NCBI GenBank assembly: GCA_943788195.1
Contig: CALSPH010000001.1
Coordinates: forward strand, 619,673 to 683,672
Direction of reading: 5' to 3'
DNA from: an uncultured Bacteroidia bacterium
GTDB taxonomy: Bacteria > Bacteroidota > Bacteroidia > NS11-12g > UBA955
Length of the DNA stretch: 64,000 nucleotides
The notes under the pieces were generated by a model, which saw nothing but the letters and a program-made list of their open reading frames with translations, was not told the DNA's origin and ran no database searches. The translations under genes were made by a program, and so were the position numbers. This document shows, one piece after another, positions 7,149-47,280 of this stretch. The stretch's first letter is position 1, and every line of letters begins with the position of its first letter.

Positions 7149-7682
7149 ATGAGAGGAATAGTTGTAATAAGTTTAATATTTTTAATGGCGTTTACTACGC
7201 CTGTAGAAAAATCAGTGCCAGCTGTGGAAGCTGCACCTAAACGCAAAGAGTTGAGAATTAATGATACGATTACTAAAATCATTATTAACAAAACACAGCG
7301 AAAATTATACGCATTTTATGGGGACACATTTAAGTGGTACTATTGCGCATTCGGGGCAAATCCGGTAGGGTACAAACAGCGTGAAGGGGACAATAGAACA
7401 CCCGAAGGGAACTATTACATTTCTTTAAAGAACCCCCAAAGTCGTGGTTATCGATCTTTGAAAATTTCCTATCCCAATGCGCAAGATAGAGCCAAAGCTA
7501 GAAAAATGGGTGTGAGTCCAGGTGGAGATATTTTTATTCATGGGCTATGGTGGCCAGATCAAAATCCAGAAACGCATTGGATGTATGATTGGACTTGGGG
7601 CTGTGTTGCATTGAATAATGAACAAATAGCAGAACTTTTTAAGTGGACCTTTGTTAAGACTCCAGTAACTATTAGCCCTTAA
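7149..7682 (+). CDS. L,D-transpeptidase (YkuD) family protein
   Basis: 177 aa. N-terminal hydrophobic signal (IVVISLIFLMAFTTP), then a YkuD catalytic domain from ~40 to the end. Active-site pattern: His131 in IFIHGLWW and Cys152 in TWGCVAL, spaced as in the family (HGx...[ST]xGC). Earlier family elements TPEGNYYIS and INKTQRKLYAF are present. Likely a periplasmic enzyme that makes or edits L,D peptidoglycan cross-links or anchors proteins to the wall. The start is marked by an unusually good Shine-Dalgarno (AAGGAGG, ~7 nt upstream), rare in this window. The stop overlaps the next ATG by one base. Confidence 0.87.
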   Translation: MRGIVVISLIFLMAFTTPVEKSVPAVEAAPKRKELRINDTITKIIINKTQRKLYAFYGDTFKWYYCAFGANPVGYKQREGDNRTPEGNYYISLKNPQSRGYRSLKISYPNAQDRAKARKMGVSPGGDIFIHGLWWPDQNPETHWMYDWTWGCVALNNEQIAELFKWTFVKTPVTISP

Positions 7683-7936
7683 TGCAAATAGAACCAATTG
7701 AGGAACAAATTCTGAATAAGCTCACCTTTGCAGAAAGTTTGGAGTCATTATTCGAAGAAATTGATCAACCCAATCACATTATATCTGATGTGCTTAAACA
7801 GCTGATCAGAAAACGATTGGTCGCTACAGTCAAAGATAAAGAGAGTAAGAAAACTCAGATTTACTACGACAGTGATCACATGGACTCATTTGCTTATATC
7901 ATCACTGCATCAGGCCTAAATATGTTAGGACATTAA
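7682..7936 (+). CDS. small hypothetical protein, winged-helix-like
   Basis: 84 aa, not recognised. The pattern of short helices followed by a two-strand wing (SLESLFEEIDQPNHIISDVLKQ, LIRKRLVATVK, QIYYDSDHMDSFAYIITASG) resembles a small winged-helix domain, but this is inference only. No signal peptide or cysteines. It is translationally coupled to the L,D-transpeptidase (TAATG overlap) and followed 10 bp later by the Lacal_2735-like gene. Confidence 0.65.
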   Translation: MQIEPIEEQILNKLTFAESLESLFEEIDQPNHIISDVLKQLIRKRLVATVKDKESKKTQIYYDSDHMDSFAYIITASGLNMLGH

Positions 7937-7946
7937 AAAACACATT

Positions 7947-8111
7947 ATGTTTGGATTATTTAAGAAAAAAGACCCTTTAAAAGCACTACAAAAACAGTAT
8001 GCCGATTTACAACAGAAATCCTTTGATATGAGTACCAAAGATCGGGCTGCTTCAGATAAATTGAAAGCAGAAGCCGAAGAAATTGCAAAACAAATAGAAG
8101 CATTGCGCTAG
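7947..8111 (+). CDS. Lacal_2735-type small protein
   Basis: 54 aa, too short for most ORF filters but convincing. It starts MFGLFKKKDPLKALQKQY and is a Lys/Glu/Ala-rich helical protein ending EEIAKQIEALR. The N-terminal MFGLFKKK followed by one coiled-coil-like helix with a TKDRAASDKLKAEAEEI segment matches a small conserved protein of Bacteroidota called Lacal_2735 family; the function is unknown. Starts 10 bp after the previous stop. Confidence 0.75.
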   Translation: MFGLFKKKDPLKALQKQYADLQQKSFDMSTKDRAASDKLKAEAEEIAKQIEALR

Positions 8112-8162
8112 TTTTTGCGCTATCATGACGAGGTTGCTGAACAGGTATTGCGAATACTTTAA

Positions 8163-8170
8163 TACCTTTG
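8163..8170 (+). promoter_or_regulatory. -7 box of the ApbE/DUF3570 operon
   Basis: TACCTTTG, a perfect TAnnTTTG, 10 nt before the ATG at 8181. It marks the probable start of the four-gene operon running to 10892. No consensus -33 TTTG at 19 nt. Confidence 0.6.
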
Positions 8171-8180
8171 TCTTGATATC

Positions 8181-8546
8181 ATGCTCCCGAAAAAAGCAAC
8201 GCTTCTACTTCTTTCAATTTGTGTTTGGATGTTAAGCTTGGCAACTACGCCAGTTAAGCCAGTAAAACTTCGGTTAATTGTTTTTCAGGGGTCCGATTCG
8301 TTGTTTATTCGCTATATAACGGAAAATGATATTACGATTGAACGCATAGACTTTCCGCAAAGAATTAAACTCGATTCTGTCACACAGGAACGCAATGAGG
8401 GCATGGCTGATAAATTTGAATTCCAAGGTCAGTTTCCAACTGTGATATTGGCCAATTCGGCAGACAGTGCGTTGCTGAAGATGAACCCCAAACGGAATCA
8501 AACCGTGAAGGAATTCATAACAATCCTTAAAGAGAAAATACCCTAA
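8181..8546 (+). CDS. thioredoxin-fold protein that has lost the CxxC motif
   Basis: 121 aa with an N-terminal signal-like segment. The first gene of the Bacteroidota ApbE-DUF4266-DUF3570 operons is normally a thioredoxin-family protein with the flow FSGSDWCxxC ... ADFPR ... NExLAxKY ... GxFPTvvL. Here the same landmarks are visible (IVFQGSD, RIDFPQRIKLDS, RNEGMADKFEFQGQFPTVIL), but the stretch between GSD and the second strand is about 20 residues too short and contains no cysteine. Mature protein has no Cys at all. Likely a non-redox remnant or scaffold. It is followed 5 bp later by apbE. Family assignment rests on motif order and operon position. Confidence 0.7.
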   Translation: MLPKKATLLLLSICVWMLSLATTPVKPVKLRLIVFQGSDSLFIRYITENDITIERIDFPQRIKLDSVTQERNEGMADKFEFQGQFPTVILANSADSALLKMNPKRNQTVKEFITILKEKIP

Positions 8547-8551
8547 TAAAC

Positions 8552-9481
8552 ATGAAATGTTTTAAAAAGGAGTGCATCCGAATGGGTTCAGTTTTTGAGT
8601 TAGGTGTTGTTACTATTGACGAGAATTGGGCAACCAAATTAATTGAAATAGGGATAAAGGAAATCGAACGGTTTGAAGATATTTTGTCTGAATTTAGGCC
8701 GGACTCTATGACAAGTAAGATTAATCAGAATGCAGGCGTTGTTCCCACAAAATTGAATACAGAGGTTTTTGAATTGATCAAACGGAGTATACAAATCGCT
8801 CAAATATCCAATGGTGCTTTTGATATTACCGTTGGACCTTTAAAGAAATTGTATCAGTTTAAAAACGCAGACTTCGTTTTTCCAAAATCGAAAAAAATCA
8901 CTCAAGCATTGAATCTTGTGGGTTATGAAAAGGTAAAATTGGATGATTCAAGAGGAGAGATCCAACTTGAAAAACCTCAAATGAGCATAAGTTTTGCGGC
9001 CATTGGCAAAGGGTACGCGGCAGATCAAGTACGAAAAATATGGAGATCACACCAGGTTGAATCGGGTTATATTAATGCGAGTGGAGATTTGTGTGCATTT
9101 GGCAAAAATGCAAAAGGCAAACCATGGACCATTGGTATAGCTAATCCGAATGATCGAAAAAAGAACCTACTGCATTTAGATTTGAGTGATAGAGCCATTG
9201 CTACTTCTGGGGATTATGAGCAGTTTTTTAATTATCAAGGGAAACGCTATTCGCATAGTTTAAATCCAAAAACTGGCTTGCCATTGAGCGGAATCAAAAG
9301 TGTTTCTGTAATTTCGCCTAGTGCTGAATTGTCAGACGGTCTGGCAACAGCGGTTTATACATTGGGTGAGAAGGCAGGCATATCATTTGTGAATAGCCTT
9401 CCTCAAACCCATGCAATAGTCATCAATGAAAATAATGAGGTCCATTTTTCTGAAGATATCAATTATGAAGGCATACGTTAA
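8552..9481 (+). CDS. apbE: FAD:protein FMN transferase
   Basis: 309 aa. ApbE transfers FMN from FAD to a Thr/Ser of target proteins, with Mg2+. Family motifs: RMGSVFEL at the N-terminus, GAFDITVGPL, SFAAIGKGYAADQV, INASGDLCAFG, IATSGDYEQFF with YSHSLNPKTGLPL, and SDGLATAVYTLG near the C-terminus. There is no signal peptide or lipobox, unlike many periplasmic ApbE proteins, so the product as annotated would be cytoplasmic. No obvious FMN acceptor motif (D/S-G-A/S-T-x-x-S/T) was found in the neighbouring proteins, so its target is unknown. Its last 17 bp overlap the DUF4266 gene. Confidence 0.92.
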   Translation: MKCFKKECIRMGSVFELGVVTIDENWATKLIEIGIKEIERFEDILSEFRPDSMTSKINQNAGVVPTKLNTEVFELIKRSIQIAQISNGAFDITVGPLKKLYQFKNADFVFPKSKKITQALNLVGYEKVKLDDSRGEIQLEKPQMSISFAAIGKGYAADQVRKIWRSHQVESGYINASGDLCAFGKNAKGKPWTIGIANPNDRKKNLLHLDLSDRAIATSGDYEQFFNYQGKRYSHSLNPKTGLPLSGIKSVSVISPSAELSDGLATAVYTLGEKAGISFVNSLPQTHAIVINENNEVHFSEDINYEGIR

Positions 9482-25321: not shown

Positions 25322-25329
25322 CAAAAATA
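25322..25329 (-). promoter_or_regulatory. -7 box of the WcaF-type acetyltransferase gene
   Basis: TATTTTTG on the minus strand, perfect TAnnTTTG, 8 nt before the ATG at 25313. Confidence 0.45.
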
Positions 25330-25388
25330 GAATAAAGAGTTGCATTTAGTGAGAGAATATTTAATCAATCCTTTTTTTTATGGTTTGG

Positions 25389-25419
25389 GTTGATATTAAT
25401 ATTAAATCAATTACCTTTG
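25389..25419 (+). promoter_or_regulatory. rpmH-rnpA-yidD promoter
   Basis: -7 box TACCTTTG at 25412-25419, preceded with a 19-nt spacer by GTTG (25389-25392; consensus TTTG). Leader of 22 nt to the rpmH ATG, with AGAGG just before it. Confidence 0.7.
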
Positions 25420-25441
25420 CAGACCTTTAAAACTCAGAGGT

Positions 25442-25600
25442 ATGAAAAGAACATTCCAACCATCCAATAGAAAAAGAAGAAACAAACACGGTTTTCGTGA
25501 AAGAATGTCAACTGTGGCAGGTAGAAAAGTGTTGGCTTCTAGAAGAGCAAAAGGAAGAAAAACGCTTTCTGTATCAGATGAATACAGACATAAGCGTTAA
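25442..25600 (+). CDS. rpmH: 50S ribosomal protein L34
   Basis: 52 aa, below the usual ORF cut-off but unmistakable: [40 protein letters not shown], then [11 protein letters not shown]. Very basic, part of the large ribosomal subunit. In its classic place ahead of rnpA and yidD, with its own consensus promoter. Confidence 0.98.
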
Positions 25601-25616
25601 TTAACCAAGCTTAACC

Positions 25617-26003
25617 ATGAGTTTCAAGTCGGATTTTGCTTTGCCAAAATCACATAGGCTTCGTTCTACTTCATTAATTCAACAATTATTTAAATCACAG
25701 CATACCGTTAAGGAATTTCCTTTATTGGTACATTATTTTTGGTCTTCTGATCAGAATTATCATCAGTTTATGCCAATTGTTTCTAAACGAAAGTTCAAAC
25801 GAGCTGTAGATAGAAATCGTTTAAAAAGGCAACTTAAAGAAATTTGGCGCTTGAATCAACATTTAATCCAATGCGAAGGGAAAGAGTTTTTAGTGATTGG
25901 TTTAGCGTATATTGCTACAAAGAAATTGAAATACAATCAAATTGAAACTGCTTTTCTCAGTTTGGTGAACTCTTTAAACAATGAAACTAAGAACCATTCT
26001 TAA
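25617..26003 (+). CDS. rnpA: ribonuclease P protein component
   Basis: 128 aa basic protein that binds RNase P RNA and pre-tRNA leaders. Landmarks: LPKSHRLRS at the N-terminus, [20 protein letters not shown] containing the RNR motif, and a C-terminal helix ([17 protein letters not shown]). It follows rpmH by 16 bp and overlaps yidD by 23 bp, the usual gene order. Confidence 0.96.
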
Positions 26004-26208
26004 TTTCCCATTAGTTGTCTTAATTAAGGTGTATCAATATTTGATTTCACCTTTAATTCCTAATGCCTGTAGATATGAACCGACTTGTTCTGTTTATTAT
26101 ATTGAGGCATTGAAGAAATATGGTCCTTTAAAAGGCTCTTATTTAGGTATAAAGCGAATTCTGAGTTGTCATCCTTGGGGAGGACATGGACATGATCCTG
26201 TACCTTAA
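25981..26208 (+). CDS. yidD: membrane protein insertion efficiency factor YidD
   Basis: 75 aa. Signature [57 protein letters not shown]. Small amphipathic membrane-associated protein that helps YidC-dependent insertion. yidC is not next to it here; instead queA lies convergent on the other strand and the two stop codons overlap within TTAA (26205-26208). Confidence 0.96.
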
Positions 26209-27353
26209 ATCAGCCAAAGTAAACTACTATCACCATAACTTAAAAAACGATACTGGTTTTTAAGGGCTTCTGAATACACCCGTTTCCAATCTTTTCCAAT
26301 GCATGTGGCAATGAGCATCAATAAGCTGGAACCAGGCTGATGAAAATTGGTAATGAGGCCGTCAATACTGGATACTTTTTTACCCGGGTAAATAAATATT
26401 TGTGTAGCGGCCAATTGATCGCCATTTACTTCTAAATATTCTGCAAGAATCTCCAGACTTTCAGAGTAGCTTAGCCCGGCCAAAGGGGCATCATTTTGAA
26501 GAATGATAAAGGGGTTTGCCTTACCGAGTTTGATTTTTGATCCAATCAAATAAAGGCTTTCAAGCACTCTTAAGCTAGTTGTTCCTACTGCAAATCGAGG
26601 AGCAGAATGAGCCATTAGCGACTTAACTTGTTCAAGCCTAACCTCGAACCTTTCGGAATGCATATTATGCTCTAATATATTCTCAGATTCAACAGGTTTA
26701 AATGTTCCTGCTCCGACATGCAATGTGGTTTCAACAAGATTGACATCTTTTTTACTTAATCGGGCCATTACTTCTTTCGTAAAATGCAATCCAGCGGTTG
26801 GAGCAGCAACACTCCCTGCAATTTTGGCATACATTGTTTGATAATCAAGGCTATCTTGTGCTGTGTTTTTTCTGTTTAGATAAGGAGGAATTGGTATTTG
26901 CCCTATGGATTCAACCAGACTGGAAAAAGACGTTCCATTTTTCCATTTTAGCTCTACGGTATTATTCTCACGATCGACCCACCGAATCTCTAAGCGATTG
27001 GAGATATCAAAAATGCTACCTTCTTTCCATCGTTTTTTGTTTCCTACCAAAACATGCCACTGGCAAGAATCCGTTGCTGAAAAGCAGGTTTCATAATCAT
27101 CAATGGGTTCAAGCAGAAAAATTTCAATAGACGCTCCTGTAGGTTTTTGGCAATGAATTCGTGCAGGAATTACTTTGGCATTATTCATAACCAATTGCGA
27201 TTTTTCTGGGATCAATTGATCTAATTCTAAAAAGCTATGATGACTTATTGTACCATGTTTGTGCTGCAAGAGTTTGCTGTTGTGTCTTGGGTTAACAGGA
27301 TGTTTGGCAATCTGTTTATCAGGTAAATCATAAAGAAACTCGGTTCTATTCAT
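26205..27353 (-). CDS. queA: S-adenosylmethionine:tRNA ribosyltransferase-isomerase
   Basis: 382 aa from the ATG at 27353 ([19 protein letters not shown]), preferred over 27368 because it matches the family N-terminus. QueA transfers and isomerises the ribosyl group of SAM to 7-aminomethyl-7-deazaguanine in tRNA, giving epoxyqueuosine. Motifs: [63 protein letters not shown]. The start overlaps the end of rdgB by 8 bp (coupled). Stop codon overlaps yidD's on the opposite strand. Confidence 0.96.
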
Positions 27354-36666: not shown

Positions 36667-37197
36667 TTAATCGTCTTCATCCTCTTTGTAGTATTTAAGT
36701 GTTGACTTTTCATAAAAGAAACTCAAATCTTTGTATTTGGCGATGTAGGCCTTAAGTTCTGCAGCAGATTCGAATTCCTCATCAATGTTATCGGTTACTT
36801 CATACAACTTAACAATGGTACCAGAAGAGTTTGCATTCACCTTATAAATGTAATAATCTGCATTGTCTTTCCCGTAATCTGTTGAGTTGACAAAGTCTGA
36901 TTGTGTTTTACGTGTTACTAAGAATGGAGTTCCTTTAATTGTCGTGGTATATCCTTCGTAGGTATAAGTTACTTTGTCATCACTGTTTTTAACTTCTTCA
37001 ATCTTATATAGATTAGCGCTTTTTTTAGAAACGACATAACGATACGTTGTGCTACCTTTTTTCTCGTAAGATCCTAAATAAGAAGATTTAACCGCTTCAC
37101 TTGGATCGGACTCTAAGCTAACCTTGGTTTTGTACGGGCAACCCATGAATAGGAATGACAGTGTTACAATACTGAGGGTGTAAATAAGTTTTTTCAT
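36667..37197 (-). CDS. unknown lipoprotein, GCPY paralog 1
   Basis: 176 aa from the ATG at 37197, which gives a lipoprotein signal MKKLIYTLSIVTLSFLFMGC (lipobox LFMGC); the longer frame from 37251 is not credible. The mature part starts PYKTKVSLESDPSEAV and holds a single small beta-rich domain ending in DEEFESAAELKAYIAKYKDL, SFFYEKSTLKYYKEDEDD. It is not a family I can name. Strong paralogy with the next gene (LGSYEKKGSTTYRYVVSKKS versus MGNFEKQSSSYYYAVISKKS; EEFESAxxLKxYIxKxKDLSFFY in both) shows a tandem duplication. Acidic tail. Followed by a terminator. Confidence 0.8.
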   Translation of the reverse strand: MKKLIYTLSIVTLSFLFMGCPYKTKVSLESDPSEAVKSSYLGSYEKKGSTTYRYVVSKKSANLYKIEEVKNSDDKVTYTYEGYTTTIKGTPFLVTRKTQSDFVNSTDYGKDNADYYIYKVNANSSGTIVKLYEVTDNIDEEFESAAELKAYIAKYKDLSFFYEKSTLKYYKEDEDD

Positions 37198-37269
37198 AGT
37201 ATATAATTTTTTATTTGGTTCAAATATCAAATAACCCGTTGGGTATATCAATACGCACTATTGCGTATT

Positions 37270-37776
37270 TTATTCCTCATCCGCTTTGTAGTATTTATCT
37301 ATTCTCTTCTGGTAGAAAAAGCTTAGATCTTTGTGTTTTTCAATATATTTTTTAAGATCTGAAGCGGATTCAAATTCTTCTGAAATGTAGTCAGTAATGC
37401 CTTGAAGCTTCATAATATAACCACTTTTTGAAGGCATGAATTTATATATATAGCCTTTCTTTTTATAGTAAATTGAACTGCTGCTAGACTCACGTTTTAC
37501 ATATAAAAATTTCGTGCCTTTTATATCGTAAATTTTACCAACTCCGGTTTCACGAAGTTCGTCATCTTTAGTTCTAAATTTTTCAATTTTGTACTCGTTT
37601 TCTGATTTTTTAGAGATAACGGCATAATAATATGAGCTACTTTGTTTTTCAAAATTGCCCATATACTTACCATCCACTTTTTCAGCACCATCCATTTCTA
37701 GGTCCGTGCTGTAGGGACAGCCACTAAATAGAATCATGGCTAACGCCAAAAAGCTCAAATGGGTCAATTGCTTAAT
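37270..37776 (-). CDS. unknown lipoprotein, GCPY paralog 2 (probable non-ATG start)
   Basis: Same architecture as its neighbour: signal IKQLTHLSFLALAMILFSGC (lipobox LFSGC), PYSTDLEMDGAEK, then a beta-rich domain ending EEFESASDLKKYIEKHKDL, SFFYQKRIDKYYKADEE. No ATG is available. TTG at 37767 leaves a signal with no positive charge; ATT at 37776 aligns residue for residue with the ATG of paralog 1 (both 22 residues to GCPY) and restores the Lys. A TAACTTTG box ends 7 nt before the ATT. The start is therefore either ATT 37776 or TTG 37767; I list the former. Function unknown. Confidence 0.72.
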   Translation of the reverse strand: MKQLTHLSFLALAMILFSGCPYSTDLEMDGAEKVDGKYMGNFEKQSSSYYYAVISKKSENEYKIEKFRTKDDELRETGVGKIYDIKGTKFLYVKRESSSSSIYYKKKGYIYKFMPSKSGYIMKLQGITDYISEEFESASDLKKYIEKHKDLSFFYQKRIDKYYKADEE

Positions 37777-37808: not shown

Positions 37809-39209
37809 TTACCTCTTAAGTTGCAGAGATACAATGTTTTCGATATGATGGGTTTGAGGGAACATGTCAACCGCTTGGCTCAATTCTACCTCATACGACT
37901 CAGATAACAAGGCCAAGTCTCTTGCTTGGGTTGCCGGATTACAACTGATATAAATGATTTGTCTTGGGAGGGCAGTAAGCAAGGTTTCAATCACCTCTTT
38001 ATCCATTCCATTTCTTGGCGGATCAACCATAATCACATCTGGTTTGCCTTCTTGGGCAATAAGTTCATTGGTAAAGGCTTTTTTCATGTCACCCACAAAG
38101 AAGGTGCAGTTATCAATGCCATTTTCTTTGGCATTTTCACGCGCATCGTCAATCGCCTGAGGCAGGATTTCAATTCCAACGACCTTCTGAACACTTTTAG
38201 CCATAAATAAGGCGATAGATCCCGTTCCGGTATAAAGATCATATACCACATCGCTTGGGTTAAATTGGGCAAGTTTAAGTGCAGCTTCATATAAATGAAA
38301 AACCTGGGTACTGTTGGTTTGAAAAAAGCTTTTGGGTCGTACTTTATATTTTAGGTCGCCAATCTGATCATAAAGCAGCTCATCTCCACTATATCGAACC
38401 ACATCTAAATCAAATATCGTATCGTTCTTTTTGGTATTTATAACAAAATTTAAACTACTGATTTCGCTGAATTTTTCATCTAAGTTCTGAAGCAGCTGAT
38501 CAATGAGGGCTGTTTTTTCTGTAATCACAAGAATTACCATTAATCCCCCTAAAGAAGAAGTGCGCACAATAAGATTACGCAAAATCCCAGTATGCATGCG
38601 AATGTTGTAGTGCTCAATTTCTTGTTCTTTGGTGAACTTTCCTACATATTGAATGATATCATTTACCGACTGGTTCACCAAATGACAGTGTTCTACGTTT
38701 AATACCTTATCAAACCGACCTGGCACATGAAAACCCAAAGCAGGTTCCTTAAGAACACTTTTGTCTGTAACATCTTCAATCCAACCTTCATGGCAAAAAG
38801 AGAGTTCAACTTTATTTCTATACTCAAATTCACTTGGGGCACCAATGATTGGAAGCAGTTTTTTGGGAGTTACTTTTCCAATTTTATCCAATTGGTTAAT
38901 CACTTGTTTTTCCTTTTGGATTAGTTGCTCTTCATATGAAATATGTTGCCATTTACATCCTCCACAAACGGAAAAATGGGCGCATTTGGGCTCGATTCTT
39001 AAATCACTCCGTTGGTGAAAATGCGTAGCTCGTGCTTCTAGATAATTCTTTTTTTTACGTGTAACTTGCGCATCAATAATATCTCCCGGGGCAGTAAATG
39101 GAATAAAAACAACTTGCTCATCTAGCCTGGCAATGCACTTACCTTCGGCAGCAAATTGGGTGATTTCTAAGTTACTTAATGGCCCGTACTTGTGTTTTCT
39201 TCGACTCAA
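37809..39209 (-). CDS. rlmD: 23S rRNA (uracil-5-)-methyltransferase RlmD/RumA family
   Basis: 466 aa. N-terminal TRAM domain (~8-65, ITQFAAEGKCIARLDEQVVF), Fe-S cluster cysteines (KCAHFSVCGGCKWQHISY plus CHLVNQ), central domain, then the SAM-dependent methyltransferase: VYDLYTGTGSIALFMA, VDPPRNGMDKEV and the nucleophile Cys in IYISCNPATQARDL. Methylates C5 of a uridine in 23S rRNA (or tRNA in some relatives). It lies 4 bp behind the broken thioredoxin gene, in the same direction. Confidence 0.92.
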   Translation of the reverse strand: MSRRKHKYGPLSNLEITQFAAEGKCIARLDEQVVFIPFTAPGDIIDAQVTRKKKNYLEARATHFHQRSDLRIEPKCAHFSVCGGCKWQHISYEEQLIQKEKQVINQLDKIGKVTPKKLLPIIGAPSEFEYRNKVELSFCHEGWIEDVTDKSVLKEPALGFHVPGRFDKVLNVEHCHLVNQSVNDIIQYVGKFTKEQEIEHYNIRMHTGILRNLIVRTSSLGGLMVILVITEKTALIDQLLQNLDEKFSEISSLNFVINTKKNDTIFDLDVVRYSGDELLYDQIGDLKYKVRPKSFFQTNSTQVFHLYEAALKLAQFNPSDVVYDLYTGTGSIALFMAKSVQKVVGIEILPQAIDDARENAKENGIDNCTFFVGDMKKAFTNELIAQEGKPDVIMVDPPRNGMDKEVIETLLTALPRQIIYISCNPATQARDLALLSESYEVELSQAVDMFPQTHHIENIVSLQLKR

Positions 39210-39213
39210 TTAT

Positions 39214-39760
39214 TCAGCAGATTTGATTCTTTTTTGCTGAAAGACTGTTCAGTATCGCTGCAAATGCAGTAGGGTCTTTATATCCTGGTATAACTTCTAG
39301 ACGTTCTTTTTTGGAAGGGTTAATCCAAAAGGTAGTGGTAGGATAACCACCGCTTCTTCGATCAAATAAAAATGCCTTGAAGTAAATTATTGTCAATCGT
39401 AGCGGTATCAAAACACATAATCCTTCTTAGCAATTTCTGGATTAAACTTAACACATACAAAATCTTTGTTTAGTTGCTTTATGATTGATGCATCTTTATA
39501 TGTATTTCGATCCATCACCTTACACCATCCGCACCATTCGGTATATACATCAACTAGGAGTATTTTGTTAATGCGTTTTGGCTTTTAAATAGCCTGTGTT
39601 CCAATCATAGAAAGTGAGTTGTGTATCTGTTTCATGAGGCAATTCGCTCATTTTCAACGGACTTTAGCGTCTTTTTTAGATAAGCCCATCCTGACTCTTG
39701 CATGCAGACCAAACTAAACTAAGTGAAAGAAATACAAATAAATATATTCTTGAGTTTCAT
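39214..39760 (-). pseudogene. thioredoxin-like lipoprotein gene, broken by several frameshifts
   Basis: Reading from ATG 39760 and changing frame several times recovers one coherent protein: lipoprotein signal MKLKNIFICIS..SLSLVWSACKSQ, then SELPHETDTQLTFYDWNTGY, ILLVDVYTEWCGWCKVMDRN with a WCGWC active site, IIKQLNKDFVCVKFNPEIAK, TATIDNNLLQ and SGGYPTTTFWINPSKK..PGYKDPTAFAAILNSL. This is a periplasmic thioredoxin-fold (DUF255-like) protein of ~180 aa. Frame breaks lie near 39722, 39677, 39649, 39570, 39410 and 39370. Conserved motifs are intact between breaks, so local sequence error is as likely as true decay. Four bp before rlmD. Confidence 0.75.
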
Positions 39761-39765
39761 TCTTA

Positions 39766-39773
39766 CAAAGGTA
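39766..39773 (-). promoter_or_regulatory. -7 box of the broken thioredoxin gene
   Basis: TACCTTTG on the minus strand, perfect TAnnTTTG, ending 5 nt before the ATG at 39760. Confidence 0.5.
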
Positions 39774-39878
39774 ATAAAACAGATTCTCGAAATTCTAGAA
39801 AAATGAAATCCTTCCAATTATTCGATGGAATATTACCTAAGGCTGATTTATGTCACTGCTGCCAACCAATAAATTCAA

Positions 39879-39886
39879 TATATTTG
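39879..39886 (+). promoter_or_regulatory. -7 box of the DUF4175 gene
   Basis: TATATTTG, perfect TAnnTTTG, 12 nt before the proposed TTG start at 39899. The divergent gap 39774-39878 holds nothing else I can recognise. Confidence 0.5.
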
Positions 39887-39898
39887 CGTTATATAGAT

Positions 39899-41009
39899 TT
39901 GCAAGCAACCAACCAACTTATATCATCCCTAGAGCGCTTTATACGCAAGTTCTATATCAATCAAATATTGAAAGGGTTGGGGTTGCTTTTGGTTATTTTG
40001 TTACCCCTTGTTTCTGGTCTTTGTTTATTTGGAATATCTAGGACATTTTTCCATTGAGATTAGGACTTTTCTTTTTTACACTTTTATTCTGACGGGTTCA
40101 ATTATTCTAATTCGATATATACTTTTTCCATTGTTCAAACTCTATGGGATTTCAAAGAATAGATTAAGTCATGATGAAGCTGCTGGAATCATAGGCAACC
40201 ACTTTTCAGAAATTAAGGATAAACTTATTAATGCCATGCAACTGTCGGTTGCTTCAGTAAAGGCAGATGAGAATGAGTTGCTGATTGCTGGTGTAAATCA
40301 AAAGATGGATGAAATAAAGCCGTTTAATTTCACCTTAGCAATCAACAAAAAGGAAAAGTGGTAAAATGTTGCGTTATGCTGGCCTTGCGATTTTATTGTT
40401 GGCCATAGTGTCTATTTTTCAAGGAAAACATGGTAACAGAAGGGTCCAAGAGATTAATTAATTATAATCGCGAGTTTGTGCGAAAAGCGCCATTCTTGTT
40501 TCATTTTAAAACCCCAAAAACATTAAAAAAGGGGGATAATTTAAACTTAATCCTTTGAGTTTAGGTGGGGATGAAATCCCTGCTGATGCATACCTTTTTG
40601 TGAATAATGAATGGGTGAAAATGAAATCAGATGTGGCAGGCAAGTTCTCCTTTGAACTGCGCAACTTGCAGGCAAACAAAGTGCTTAAGTTTAGAGCTGA
40701 TGATTTTGAAAGTGTAACGTTTGAAGTGCCCTGTAATATCTGCACCAAGCTTATCGCAAGTTCAAATAGAATTGGACTATCCAAATTATATCGGTAGAAA
40801 GAGCGAGACCAAAAACACCACATCTGATCTGATTATCCCAGAAGGAACAAAAGTGACATGGAATTTAAAGGCTTTGAACACCGATCAACTGGATTTTATC
40901 TTGGGAGGAAAGAAGTTAACGGGGGAATGGTTATTATCAAAGTAGCATTCGAAGCAATACGGACTATCGTGTATTACTGAGGAATAAAATCCTAAATGAG
41001 ACCGATTCA
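39899..41009 (+). pseudogene. 5' part of the DUF4175 gene, broken by six frameshifts
   Basis: Frame order 2,3,1,2,1,2,3 recovers the N-terminal third of a DUF4175 protein: QATNQLISSLERFIRKFY, INQILKGLGLLLVILL, VYLEYLGHFSIEIRTFLFY, SHDEAAGIIGNHFSEIKDKL, LRYAGLAILLLAIVSIFQG, EFVRKAPFLFHFKTP, DEIPADAYLFVNNEWVKM, QIELDYPNYIGRKSET and LIIPEGTKVTWNLKAL. Breaks fall near 40015, 40360, 40430, 40550, 40735 and 40935, several beside short homopolymers. Probable start is TTG 39899. The encoded sequence is well conserved throughout, so this may be a consensus error and not a dead gene. Confidence 0.72.
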
Positions 41010-43250
41010 ATGGTCTATGGCATTGAGGTGGTTAAAGATAAATTCCCGGTGTTAATGGTAGAAAAGAGAGAAGATTCGCTCAGTAGCAAGCTTCTTTATT
41101 TTGTGGGTACCGCAAATGATGACTACGGTCTGAGCCGACTCACTTTTCATTATAAAATTGAGAATGAAAAGACGCGTGCAACTACAGGTTTCAAAAGCAT
41201 AAAAGTGCCCATTGGTAAAAGCAATAGCGAGGTTTTTAGTTTTGTGTTTGATTTGTTCAACCTTGACTTTGAGTTGGGCAGTACCATGAAGTGCTATTTT
41301 CAAGTGTATGATAACGATGGTATCAATGGTGCTAAATCAACTAAATCTGCCGTTATGGAATACAAGGCTCCTACGGCCGAGGAGTTGGAAAACTTGAGTG
41401 ATCAGGGCAATTCCAGCCTAGTCGCACAGATGGATAACGCGATCAAGGAGGCCCAAGAAATTCAAAAGATGATAAAGGAGTTGCAAGTTAAAATGAACGA
41501 CTCCAAAACGATGGATTGGCAAGAGAAGAATAAAATCAATAACCTATTGCAAAAGCAAAAAAACTTGCAAAAGAAAGTCGATCAAATTAAACAGCAACAA
41601 GAAAAGATTAGAACTAGGGAAGATGAGTTTAAAAAGATTAATCCTAAGGTTAAGGAAAAACAAAAGATTTTGGATGATATGTTTAAGAAGACCATGTCTG
41701 AAGAAATGAAAGAACTGTTTAAAAAATTGGAGGAGTTATTAAAAGATAAGAATAAGCAACAAATCAATAAGCAGCTGGATAAGATGAACCAGGCAGACAA
41801 GGATGTCTCTAAGGATCTCGAACGACTGCAGGAGCAACTTAAACAGCTGGAGCTTGAAAAGAAAATTGAAGAAACTGCAGATAAGTTGGACGAGCTTGCA
41901 AAAAAGCAAGAAAAGCTAGAATCACAAACCAAGATGAAAGCAGAAAACAACGAGACCTTGGCTAAGAAGCAGGAAGAGTTGAAGAAAGAGTTTGATGGGA
42001 TTAAAAAAGACTTGGATAAAATCGAAGAGAAGAACAAGGAATTGAAGGACAAATTGGATTTGAACTCTACCCAGGAGGATCAAAAATCCATAGAACAAGA
42101 GATGGGTGAAGCCAAAGAGAGTCTGGATAAAGGGAAGAACAAAAAAGCTGGAGAAAGTCAGAAACAAGCAGGGGAAAAGATGAAGCAGCTTTCCAAAAAG
42201 ATGAAGCAGAACCTGGAATCTGAAATGAAAAAGCGCGAGGCGGAGGATTACAAAACTTTAAGGCAATTATTAGAGAACCTAATTGCATTAAGTCATGAAC
42301 AGGAGAACACCATGAAGGAATTTAAAAAACAACCTGGGTATTCACCACGATTTATTGAGTTAGCAAAACAACAGCAAAAAATTAAGCGGGATGCCGAAAT
42401 GATTGAAGATTCGTTGCTGGCACTAAGTAAAAGAAATATTAAAATCCAGAGTTTTGTAAACACTGAAATAGGCAAGATCAACCACCACATGGAAAAAACG
42501 GTGAATTGGCTTAGTGAGCGGAATACCTATATGGCCGCTGCAGATCAACAGTATGTTATGACTTCGGTAAATAATTTAGCTGTAATGTTGAGTGAGTCGC
42601 TTAAAAATATGCAGATGGAAATGAACCAGAAACAAAAAAGCGGTTCTAAAAAAGTAGGTCAATGTAAAAAGCCTGGAATGGGAGATGGTAAAAGTGGTGC
42701 AAAGCCAAAGAAAGGCGGGAAATCACCAAGTATGGGAACATTGAAAGAGCTTCAGGGCGATTTGAATAAAATGGGCAAAGAGCGCAAAGAAGGTAAGAAG
42801 AATGGCACAGGAAAGAATGGAGCCATGACTTCGGAAGATTTTGTGCGGATGGCAAATCAGCAAGAAGCCTTGCGTAGAGCAATACAAGCTGTCCAGCAAA
42901 AACTAAAAGAAGAAGGCAAAACAGGTGCCTTGGGCGACTTAAATAAGACCCAGAAGTTGATGGAACAAACCGAGAAGGATTTGGTCAATAAAAAATTCGA
43001 TGCACAAACCATTCAACGACAAAAAGAAATTGAGATACGCTTAAGCAAGCATGAAGAGGCTGAAATCAAGCAGGAGCAGGATGAGAAAAGACAAGGCGAG
43101 ACGGCCAAAGAAAAACCAAGAGTTGTTCCGCCTTCACTTCAACCTTATATTGAAGAGCTGAAACGGCAACAAGAGATTCTAAAGACATTGCCAGCCGAAA
43201 TGCTTCCTTATTATCAAAACAAAGTAAAATCATATTATATTCTATTGTAA
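41010..43250 (+). CDS. DUF4175 coiled-coil membrane protein (C-terminal two thirds)
   Basis: 746 aa from the ATG at 41010; the open frame extends back to 40941 (SSIRSNTDYRVLLRNKIL), so this is not the real start. Joined to the upstream fragments the protein would be ~1115 aa with two N-terminal membrane helices and Ig-like periplasmic domains, the usual DUF4175 size and layout. This part has one more Ig-like domain (YGLSRLTFHYKIENE) and then a very long Lys/Glu/Gln coiled coil (~150-480), a Gly/Lys-rich stretch (~545-605) and a helical end. Function unknown. Followed immediately (0 bp) by the SanA-like gene. Confidence 0.85.
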   Translation: MVYGIEVVKDKFPVLMVEKREDSLSSKLLYFVGTANDDYGLSRLTFHYKIENEKTRATTGFKSIKVPIGKSNSEVFSFVFDLFNLDFELGSTMKCYFQVYDNDGINGAKSTKSAVMEYKAPTAEELENLSDQGNSSLVAQMDNAIKEAQEIQKMIKELQVKMNDSKTMDWQEKNKINNLLQKQKNLQKKVDQIKQQQEKIRTREDEFKKINPKVKEKQKILDDMFKKTMSEEMKELFKKLEELLKDKNKQQINKQLDKMNQADKDVSKDLERLQEQLKQLELEKKIEETADKLDELAKKQEKLESQTKMKAENNETLAKKQEELKKEFDGIKKDLDKIEEKNKELKDKLDLNSTQEDQKSIEQEMGEAKESLDKGKNKKAGESQKQAGEKMKQLSKKMKQNLESEMKKREAEDYKTLRQLLENLIALSHEQENTMKEFKKQPGYSPRFIELAKQQQKIKRDAEMIEDSLLALSKRNIKIQSFVNTEIGKINHHMEKTVNWLSERNTYMAAADQQYVMTSVNNLAVMLSESLKNMQMEMNQKQKSGSKKVGQCKKPGMGDGKSGAKPKKGGKSPSMGTLKELQGDLNKMGKERKEGKKNGTGKNGAMTSEDFVRMANQQEALRRAIQAVQQKLKEEGKTGALGDLNKTQKLMEQTEKDLVNKKFDAQTIQRQKEIEIRLSKHEEAEIKQEQDEKRQGETAKEKPRVVPPSLQPYIEELKRQQEILKTLPAEMLPYYQNKVKSYYILL

Positions 43251-43895
43251 ATGAAGAAGTGGCTGGTGCGTATTGTTAAATGGGGGTTAGTTGCACTTTT
43301 ATTCACCTACGCATTAATTTATTTTGGAAACAGAGCGGTCATTCTGCGTTCTCAAAAGTATTTATACGGAGATTTAAAGGAAGTACCAAAACAAAAAGTA
43401 GGCCTGCTCTTGGGAACCTCTAAATATGTGAGCAATGGAAATATTAATCAATTTTACGCTTATCGCATACAAGCAGCCGTTGACCTATACAGGGCAGGGA
43501 AAGTTTCATTCATTTTAGTGAGCGGAGATAATGGTACCACATCGTATAATGAACCAAGAACCATCAAGCGTGATTTAATTGCTCGGGGAATCCCAGCAGA
43601 AAAGATTATTTTAGATTATGCAGGTTTCAGAACCTATGATTCTGTAGTGAGAGCAAACAAGGTATTTGGACAAAACGGTTTCATTGTGATATCTCAAGAA
43701 TTTCATAACCAAAGAGCCGTTTATATTGCTCGTAAAAGAGGGATTGAAGCGTATGGCTATAATGCAAAGTCTGTGGGTTCGCGATATGGTTTCAAGACAA
43801 TGCAACGCGAAAAATTGGCTAAAGTAAAAGCGATATTAGACGTAATGGTCAATAAGACTCCTAAATTTCTGGGAGATAAAATTGTAATTGAGTAG
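43251..43895 (+). CDS. SanA/YdcF-like DUF218 membrane protein
   Basis: 214 aa. One N-terminal membrane helix (WGLVALLFTYALIYFG), then a DUF218 domain: VGLLLGTSKYVSNGNINQFY, RIQAAVDLYRAGKVSFILVS, GDNGTTSYNEPRTIKRDL, GIPAEKIILDYAGFRTYDSV and ISQEFHNQRAVYIARKRG. SanA of E. coli affects envelope permeability and vancomycin resistance; the ElyC/YdcF superfamily is linked to envelope polysaccharides. It starts on the base after the DUF4175 stop. Confidence 0.88.
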   Translation: MKKWLVRIVKWGLVALLFTYALIYFGNRAVILRSQKYLYGDLKEVPKQKVGLLLGTSKYVSNGNINQFYAYRIQAAVDLYRAGKVSFILVSGDNGTTSYNEPRTIKRDLIARGIPAEKIILDYAGFRTYDSVVRANKVFGQNGFIVISQEFHNQRAVYIARKRGIEAYGYNAKSVGSRYGFKTMQREKLAKVKAILDVMVNKTPKFLGDKIVIE

Positions 43896-43918
43896 TTCAT
43901 TGAATTGCGTTATTTTTG
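43887..43918 (+). promoter_or_regulatory. hisH2 promoter (ATTG-N20-TATTTTTG)
   Basis: -7 box TATTTTTG (43911-43918) with ATTG at 43887-43890, 20-nt spacer. The box lies inside the upstream-extended open frame, so the gene must start downstream of it. Confidence 0.6.
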
Positions 43919-43923
43919 CTTCT

Positions 43924-44535
43924 CTGAAAATAGCCATTATAAATTACGGACTTGGAAACTTGGGGAGTGTTAAAAACATGCTCAAGAAGGTGGGTTGCAA
44001 TAATGCGGTGATTACCGATGACTTGAATGAGATTGGGCAAGCCGATAAACTAATTCTACCTGGGGTAGGGTCTTTTGATCATGGAATGCAACAATTGCAT
44101 GAAAAGGGTTTGGTAGAGGGACTTAATAGGATTGTTTTAAAGGATAAGAAACCCATCTTGGGTATTTGTTTGGGTGCACAGTTGATGTGCAAGTCCAGTG
44201 AAGAAGGTGAATTACCTGGACTGGGATGGTTTAACGCTGAAGTAAAACGGTTTAGTCTAGAAGACAAAGCCTTAAAAATCCCACATATGGGTTGGAATAG
44301 AGTTCATATGGAGAAGAAACATCCGTGGATGGAAGGCCTTCCAGAACCTGCACGTTTTTACTTTGTACATACATATTTTATAAGGCCCAATGAGGAAAAT
44401 GATATACTATTAACGTGTAAATATGGGCAATCTTTTTGCGCTGCTTTGCAATATGAGAATAGAGTAGGAATGCAATTTCATCCTGAAAAGAGTCATAAAT
44501 TTGGCATGCAAGTTTTTCGTAATTTTATAAAATAA
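43924..44535 (+). CDS. hisH: HisH-like amidotransferase subunit for sugar amidination (HisH2/WbuY type)
   Basis: 204 aa. Class I glutamine amidotransferase: GVGSFDHGM, nucleophile Cys in LGICLGAQLM, and MQFHPEKSHKFG with the His/Glu pair. Family members begin MKIAIIxYGxGNxxSV; here LKIAIINYGLGNLGSV is encoded from CTG at 43924. The only upstream start codons in frame (TTG 43888, TTG 43900) precede or overlap the -7 box, so CTG is the probable start. Resembles histidine-pathway HisH, but no other his gene is nearby; its partners here are hisF2 and wbpG, which point to acetamidino-sugar synthesis. It supplies ammonia to that pathway. Confidence 0.87.
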   Translation: MKIAIINYGLGNLGSVKNMLKKVGCNNAVITDDLNEIGQADKLILPGVGSFDHGMQQLHEKGLVEGLNRIVLKDKKPILGICLGAQLMCKSSEEGELPGLGWFNAEVKRFSLEDKALKIPHMGWNRVHMEKKHPWMEGLPEPARFYFVHTYFIRPNEENDILLTCKYGQSFCAALQYENRVGMQFHPEKSHKFGMQVFRNFIK

Positions 44536-44539
44536 AGGA

Positions 44540-45301
44540 ATGTTAGAAAATCGTGTAATGCCTTGTTTGCTAATGATTGATTCTGGTTTGTATAAAACCG
44601 TTCAATTTAAGAAACCGGGTTATGTGGGCGACCCTATTAACGCCATCAAAATTTTCAATGATAAAGAAGTGGATGAATTGGTGTTTTTGGACATTACGGC
44701 TACCGAGAAGAAAAAGGAGCCCAATTTCAAACTCATTGAAGACATCGCAAGCGAGTGCTTTATGCCTTTGGCTTATGGCGGGGGCATTTCAACATTGGAT
44801 CAAGCCAAAAGAATATATGAAATTGGGGTTGAAAAAATAGCATTAAATAATGCGGCAATCCACAACCCAAAACTGATTGAAGATATCGCTAACATATATG
44901 GAAGTCAGGCTGTAATTGTAAGTATTGATTACAAAAAGAATGTTTGGGGTAAAGTTCTTGTGCATGGACAGCGAGGTAAGAAGAGTATTGGTAAAACACC
45001 AGAAGTTTTTGCCAAAGAAATGGAGCAAGCAGGTGCTGGGGAGTTGTTAATTACAAGCATAGATAGGGAAGGAACATGGCAAGGATTGGATGTAGAAGTC
45101 CTCAAAAATATTACCGATAAAGTAGATATTCCGGTAATAGCGAATGGTGGTGCGGGCAATTTACAGCATGTTGAGGCAGTAGTTAAGCAAGGTGGAGCCA
45201 GTGCGGTTACATTGGGAAGTATGAGTGTTTATCAGAAACAAGGATTAGGAGTTTTGATAAATTTCCCAAAGCGATCGGATATTTTGAAGGTTTTGAACTA
45301 A
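44540..45301 (+). CDS. HisF-like protein of acetamidino-sugar synthesis (HisF2/WbuZ type)
   Basis: 253 aa TIM barrel. RVMPCLLMIDSGLYKTVQFK replaces the histidine-pathway RVIPCLDVxxGRVVKG, the sign of the HisF2/AglZ/WbuZ branch. Barrel elements: ELVFLDITATEKKKEPNF, MPLAYGGGIS, KIALNNAAI, VIVSIDYKKN, ELLITSIDREGTWQGLDVE, IPVIANGGAGN and GASAVTLGSM. It works with HisH2 to pass ammonia in amidination. 4 bp after hisH2 with AAGGA upstream. Confidence 0.9.
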   Translation: MLENRVMPCLLMIDSGLYKTVQFKKPGYVGDPINAIKIFNDKEVDELVFLDITATEKKKEPNFKLIEDIASECFMPLAYGGGISTLDQAKRIYEIGVEKIALNNAAIHNPKLIEDIANIYGSQAVIVSIDYKKNVWGKVLVHGQRGKKSIGKTPEVFAKEMEQAGAGELLITSIDREGTWQGLDVEVLKNITDKVDIPVIANGGAGNLQHVEAVVKQGGASAVTLGSMSVYQKQGLGVLINFPKRSDILKVLN

Positions 45302-45358
45302 ACTGTTTTCTAGAATTAAGGTCTTATAGTTTCGCTGATTATTATATTGTAATTAGGC

Positions 45359-45389
45359 ATTGATTAGTTTTAGGGACGGTTTATCTTTG
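45359..45389 (+). promoter_or_regulatory. promoter of the TylF-wbpG-glycosyltransferase unit
   Basis: ATTG at 45359-45362 (consensus TTTG), 19-nt spacer, TATCTTTG at 45382-45389. Leader of 14 nt to ATG 45404. The 80-bp gap after hisF2 supports an independent transcript. Confidence 0.65.
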
Positions 45390-45403
45390 TGACATATAAA
45401 AAA

Positions 45404-46135
45404 ATGAATATAATTTCAAATCTTCGGTATTACGTTTCTAAATTATTTCCAACTAGTTTAAAATGGAAATTGATTCGTATTTTACCCGAAATCAATAATT
45501 TTACTGGCAAGTTTTTTCAGGGCATACGGTATGCATGGGAAGAGGACAAAGATTATTACCCATTATATCAGCAGGCAAAAGAACGCAGTTTATTGGACAA
45601 GAAAAGGGGTTTTATGATTTATCAGACTGCCAAGAACAGTGCAAATGTGGAAGGCAGTATGGCAGAAATCGGTGTATACAGAGGCGCTTCAGCATTTGTG
45701 GCTGGTGAGGCAGTAAATTACTCCAAGAAATTTTATCTTTTTGACACGTTTGAAGGATTGCCTAAAACCGATGCAAAAAATGACCCATACTGGAAAGAGG
45801 GTGACATGGATGAACCCGATTATCAAGACGTGAAAAAGTTTTTATCCCAAGACTGTTTTGAATTTCACAAAGGGTACTTTCCGGATACAACAGTAAACAT
45901 CAGTGCGGATGAAAAATTTGCATTTGTACATATCGATGGGGATATTTATCAAACTACTGTAGACGCCTGTAATTATTTCTATCCAAAAATGAATAAAGGG
46001 GCTTATATGATGTTTGACGATTACGGTTTTTTATCTTGTCCTGGAGTAAAAATAGCAGTAGATGATTTTTTTAAGAATAAGCCAGAAACACCTCTGTATG
46101 TGGCAACTGGTCAATGTTTGGTGATTAAACAATAA
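45404..46135 (+). CDS. TylF/MycF-type O-methyltransferase
   Basis: 243 aa from the ATG at 45404; the GTG at 45389 lies in the -7 box. SAM-dependent methyltransferase of the macrocin O-methyltransferase (TylF) family: GSMAEIGVYRGASAFVAGEA (SAM loop), FYLFDTFEGLPKTD, FAFVHIDGDIYQTTVDACNY and GAYMMFDDYGFLSCPGVKIA (metal-binding DDYG). Likely methylates a sugar of the surface polysaccharide. Sits between HisF2 and WbpG. Confidence 0.87.
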   Translation: MNIISNLRYYVSKLFPTSLKWKLIRILPEINNFTGKFFQGIRYAWEEDKDYYPLYQQAKERSLLDKKRGFMIYQTAKNSANVEGSMAEIGVYRGASAFVAGEAVNYSKKFYLFDTFEGLPKTDAKNDPYWKEGDMDEPDYQDVKKFLSQDCFEFHKGYFPDTTVNISADEKFAFVHIDGDIYQTTVDACNYFYPKMNKGAYMMFDDYGFLSCPGVKIAVDDFFKNKPETPLYVATGQCLVIKQ

Positions 46136-46143
46136 ATAATATA

Positions 46144-47280
46144 ATGCAAGTTTGTAAACGTTGTTTGTATGATGAAAACATACCTATGATTAGCTTTGAT
46201 GCTGATGGGTTGTGTAATTACTGTAACCAATATGATGATATGTGCGCTCAATACCCGACAGGTAAAGAGGGTATGTCTATATTGGAAGCAGAAATAGTAA
46301 AAATTAAAAAGGACCAGAAGAACAGTAAATACGATGTAGTAATAGGTGTTTCTGGCGGATGTGATTCTTCTTATATGATTCATATGGCACACAAAATGGG
46401 CCTACGGATTCTAGCAGCGCATTTTGACAATACTTTTAACTCTAAAATTGCAGTTGAAAACATTAAAAATGTTTTGGACCCTTTGGGTATCGACTTGTAC
46501 ACGCACGTGGTGGATAATCAGGAATATCAGAGGATATTTAAATCCATGCTTTTAGCTGGAGTGCCAGAATGTGACGCCCCCACAGATTTAGCATTGGCAG
46601 TAACGCATTATATGGCTGCATCTAAACATAAAGTGAAATACATTTGGGAAGGACATAGTTTTAGAACAGAAGGTATAACACCACCCGGTTGGGTTTATAT
46701 GGATGCGAAATACGTTTCTTCAATTCATAAACGATTCGGTGATGGAAAAATCAAAACTTTACCCATGTTCTGGTTAAAGAAGTGGTTGAAATGGATGGTC
46801 ATTGATGGGATTAAAAAGTTTAGACCTTTGTATTATTTGGACTATGATAAAGAGGAAGCGAAAAAAATGCTGGCCGAAACATATGGTTGGCAATGGTATG
46901 GGGGGCACCATATGGAAAATAGGTCTGCATTTTTTGCTGATAACTATTGGGCTTTACTTCACGACATTGATTTGAGAAGTTGCGAATTTTCTGCGCTAAT
47001 TAGATCGGGCCAAATGAGTAAAGAGGTAGCAGAAGTTGAAATAAAAAAGCCTAAGAGGATGGATCAGGATGTAATGGAAGAAGTTAAAAATCGATTAGGT
47101 TTTTCAGATTCAGAATGGGATGATATGATCAATGCTCCTAAAAAGCATTATACCGCATACCCAACATATAAGCGCACCTTTGAAAAACTGAGGCCCCTGT
47201 TTTATATACTGTATAAAAAAGGGTATGTAACTCGAAGTTTTTATTCGAAGTTTTGCTTTCCACAATCATTTAATAATTAA
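46144..47280 (+). CDS. wbpG: N-acetyl sugar amidotransferase (WbpG type)
   Basis: 378 aa. N-terminal Cys4 site (Cys4, Cys7 in VCKRCLYD and Cys24, Cys27 in LCNYCNQY), then a PP-loop ATPase motif VIGVSGGCDSSYMIH and the conserved YIWEGHSFRTEGITPPGWVYMD. This is the ATP-using subunit that, with HisH2 and HisF2, converts an N-acetyl group on a UDP- or CMP-sugar to an acetamidino group (WbpG in Pseudomonas O5 antigen, PseA for pseudaminic acid). The sugar itself cannot be told from this window. Confidence 0.92.
   Translation: MQVCKRCLYDENIPMISFDADGLCNYCNQYDDMCAQYPTGKEGMSILEAEIVKIKKDQKNSKYDVVIGVSGGCDSSYMIHMAHKMGLRILAAHFDNTFNSKIAVENIKNVLDPLGIDLYTHVVDNQEYQRIFKSMLLAGVPECDAPTDLALAVTHYMAASKHKVKYIWEGHSFRTEGITPPGWVYMDAKYVSSIHKRFGDGKIKTLPMFWLKKWLKWMVIDGIKKFRPLYYLDYDKEEAKKMLAETYGWQWYGGHHMENRSAFFADNYWALLHDIDLRSCEFSALIRSGQMSKEVAEVEIKKPKRMDQDVMEEVKNRLGFSDSEWDDMINAPKKHYTAYPTYKRTFEKLRPLFYILYKKGYVTRSFYSKFCFPQSFNN

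Follow-up and report, generated by a model that had tools for sequence, protein, structure and literature searches.

The frame breaks that interrupt two adjoining divergent genes, one coding for a thioredoxin-like exported protein and the other for a DUF4175 protein (Table 1), are almost certainly errors in the assembled sequence; they form one patch of ~1.6 kb (39.3–40.9 kb), one of several in this assembly, and the organism most likely has both genes intact. They are not a real biological feature of the window, that is, of the whole stretch of 64,000 nucleotides analysed here (C1:619,673–683,672 of a 2.53-Mb genome in three contigs of 1.79, 0.68 and 0.06 Mb). The actual locus would hold two intact divergent genes, for a DsbH/thioredoxin-like exported protein and for a DUF4175 protein of ~1110 aa. 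A preference for local sequence error over gene decay had already been expressed in a sequence-only reading of this DNA, and it is supported by our analysis because the breaks are confined to patches, recur in rpoB and rpoC as damage of like kind and density, and are found without amino-acid decay or excess divergence.

Table 1. Coordinates of the two interrupted genes, their neighbours and the patch of breaks (positions in the window)
Feature	Position	Strand	Remarks
RlmD-type 23S rRNA uracil methyltransferase gene	37809..39209	-	Intact; control flanking the patch on one side
Thioredoxin-like exported protein gene	39214..39760	-	6–7 apparent frame breaks; frame-aware alignment
DUF4175 gene, whole	39899–43250	+	6 breaks, all within 40001–40919
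DUF4175 gene, 5' part	39899..41009	+	Holds the 6 apparent breaks (40001–40919)
DUF4175 gene, remainder	41010..43250	+	Open; control where compared (41010–41969)
DUF218 gene	43251–43895	+	3' neighbour of the DUF4175 gene
Patch attributed to sequence error	39376..40925	.	First to last confidently placed break; alignment to L032 and codon HMM

The reference for the counting of breaks was the closest relative found, an uncultured Flavobacteriaceae MAG (record CAKZOR010000146.1, here L032), whose contig stops within the DUF4175 gene. In L032 the RlmD-type, thioredoxin-like and DUF4175 genes lie in the same order and orientation as in the window, and the last two are open; a comparison with a close relative had been suggested as a check. 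A purpose-written protein-to-DNA aligner that permits frame changes, applied to the window genes and the L032 proteins, showed the frame of the thioredoxin-like gene changing six times (near 39690, 39662, 39640, 39582, 39425 and 39379) and that of the DUF4175 gene also six times (near 40001, 40359, 40423, 40553, 40714 and 40916), each position being accurate only to several bases. Moreover, a seventh break in the thioredoxin-like gene is probable, between 39760 and 39741, because the ATG (39760) is not in frame with the matched signal peptide, which starts at 39741; the patch may thus reach ~39760 inside this gene. These counts agree with the approximately six frame changes noticed by eye in each gene, and the coordinates given in that reading are also correct. 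The density is one break per ~120–130 bases (12 in ~1.55 kb), over a stretch that takes in the 138-base intergenic gap between the two genes. In contrast, the same aligner found no frame change over 455 residues of the RlmD-type gene or over 319 residues of the DUF4175 gene from 41010, the two controls that flank the broken stretch, so that the breaks form a sharp patch between clean genes. After read-through, both genes show zero in-frame stops and near-complete coverage relative to L032, with identities of 59% (thioredoxin-like) and 51% (DUF4175). The read-through DUF4175 protein has 1110 aa, most complete relatives having ~1100–1190 aa, and the thioredoxin-like protein of L032 has 184 aa, close to the ~1115 and ~180 aa that had been forecast. 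As to direction, 11 of the 12 frame changes at 39379–40916 amount to +1 modulo 3.

The thioredoxin-like homologue in L032 gives Pfam matches above cut-off to Thioredox_DsbH/DUF255 (PF03190) and Thioredoxin_7 (PF13899). The WCGWC motif is visible in the window. The window gene is interrupted six to seven times, and its fragment at 39217–39411, taken alone, has no Pfam match. Likewise, the L032 DUF4175 homologue matches PF13779 (36.7 bits vs a cut-off of 27.3), and the open part of the window gene (41010–43247) alone has no Pfam match, the matching domain lying largely in the broken part. Most members of the family and order have homologues of ~1110 aa, whereas the window copy is interrupted in its first third.

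A codon-usage HMM, trained on long open frames of the same genome and run over the whole window, identified 39187–40923 as the largest stretch without a long single-frame coding segment and flagged no comparable cluster elsewhere in the window, as had been claimed from inspection. Two shorter gaps are listed by the model. The first, 7680–8584 (candidate 7.2–8.5 kb), was rejected as a break cluster and consists of tightly packed small intact genes; the second, 25325–26219, was also rejected and holds a single short coding segment with noncoding gaps on either side. Elsewhere in the window, a tandem pair of similar small lipoprotein-like genes with a GCPY motif after the signal peptide (36667–37767) is probably a local duplication. 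At 43888–47280, HisH-like and HisF-like genes adjoin methyltransferase-like and N-acetyl-sugar amidotransferase-like genes; as named by eye from their translations, these probably belong to a pathway for a surface polysaccharide sugar and not to histidine synthesis.

Damage of the same kind is present in genes that cannot be lost. The rplL–rpoB–rpoC region (L046:5213–12418; G000 C1:1,205,200–1,212,400), first flagged by the codon model in 464 kb of the genome, is shattered, and when the genome was searched for members of the rpoB and rpoC families, this was the single locus found. The main match to rpoB (C1:1,205,731–1,209,504) contains 33 stop codons, vs none in nine of nine relatives with a match. 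By frame-aware alignment, rpoB, 83% identical to L079, has 32 frame changes, and rpoC, 80% identical to L087, has 20; these are 52 in all or one per ~107–110 bases, which is near the density of the window patch. A living cell cannot be without RNA polymerase; the breaks in rpoB and rpoC are therefore sequence errors, and the damage to this region is an error patch of ~7 kb. The direction of the frame changes in rpoB–rpoC (L093) is mixed (23 vs 29, by our own count), whereas it is nearly uniform in the window patch. The two patches may thus not share exactly one error process; the difference may come from other reads or correction steps, or from small numbers, and lends no support to a biological origin.

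The genome was sampled for such patches over 864 kb, the window included (34% of the genome). Most of this sequence is clean, long open genes included, and at least two further patches were found in it besides those of the window and rpoB–rpoC. In one (L106:17531–20000; G000 C1:1,167,531–1,170,000), which may extend beyond the stretch sampled, the broken genes are ftsK, a lolA-like one and that for an ATG22/UMF1-type transporter, the C-terminal gamma domain of ftsK being in a different frame from the motor domain. Like rpoB and rpoC, ftsK is a gene that cannot be lost. In the other (L045:15300–18460; G000 C1:1,015,300–1,018,460), a large protein with PKD domains is fragmented in its C-terminal part over ~3 kb, which makes this a probable error patch. 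Two other candidates, in L036 (11.9–14.3 kb) and L041 (12.9–14.3 kb), were rejected and consist of closely packed intact small genes. Long noncoding gaps in L047, L096, L106 and L114 gave no RNA-family matches.

The large contigs, and single-base frame changes that occur in patches of an otherwise clean sequence, fit a long-read or hybrid assembly, which this one probably is. We infer that the patches would represent the consensus of error-prone long reads where depth was too low or polishing was missed. That indel errors give rise to pseudogene-like genes is well known. One study describes how single-base indels in long-read assemblies result in false frameshifts and premature stops, causing intact genes to resemble pseudogenes (PMC12007338, Kastor). 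The errors found here differ in that they cluster in a small number of patches of ~1.6 to 7 kb, and the other sampled sequence is nearly clean.

An artefact of another origin, a poor consensus of co-occurring strains instead of a simple low-depth or unpolished stretch, is unlikely. The genome is possibly derived from a metagenome, and conserved genes such as rpoB could draw in the reads of relatives; the window patch, however, sits in poorly conserved genes (~34% identity to family members), and single-base frame changes every 110–130 bases are not the normal product of strain mixing.

Far less probable is a real and recent loss of both genes, which as true pseudogenes would mean that an envelope protein and a periplasmic thiol protein had been knocked out together. 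The deposited sequence does contain the breaks, and a further intact copy of either the DUF4175 gene or the thioredoxin-like gene was not found in this genome. However, the breaks are limited to one adjoining stretch and, in DUF4175, to the first third, and both genes are open in nearly all relatives. Of 57 genomes, 52 have DUF4175 homologues (the present genome counted), none of the matches having internal stops, and the thioredoxin-like gene is open in nearly all relatives; L032 and the sampled relatives, none of which belongs to the same species or genus, lack the breaks. The contig search for relatives of the locus returned L032 only, with no second assembly of the same species among the matches. 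Moreover, the excess amino-acid change expected of relaxed selection was looked for in the broken part of DUF4175 against 14 outgroups and was absent: the mean identity was 0.344 for the window read-through vs 0.342 for the intact L032 protein, the corresponding values for the clean part being 0.346 and 0.335. Since its identity to the outgroups equals that of intact L032, DUF4175 shows no missense decay between the breaks, as the sequence-only reading had maintained. A very recent loss would not show decay yet, but twelve indels would then be unexpected too. The reading had also raised the prospect of a fresh double knockout; this is not to be inferred, since the essential rpoB and rpoC, at their sole locus, carry breaks of the same kind. 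It is very improbable that the window indels are real, with two neighbouring envelope and periplasm genes lost very recently and the assembly's other patches, which are errors, being a mere coincidence. Tolerated or programmed frameshifts (translational frameshifting or transcript slippage), which would leave the genes functional despite the indels, can in practice be dismissed: although the proteins are recognisable between the breaks, in rpoB too, the breaks run in both directions, in varied contexts and in patches only, most of the sampled sequence is clean, and they are absent from rpoB of all relatives compared.

Error in the assembled sequence thus being the preferred explanation, the value of the finding is that of a data-quality warning only, and for this assembly. 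Analyses of gene loss, pseudogenes or marker genes would wrongly count five genes as broken or absent, namely rpoB, rpoC, ftsK and those for the DUF4175 and thioredoxin-like proteins, and a frame-aware check of rpoB alone exposes the assembly problem.
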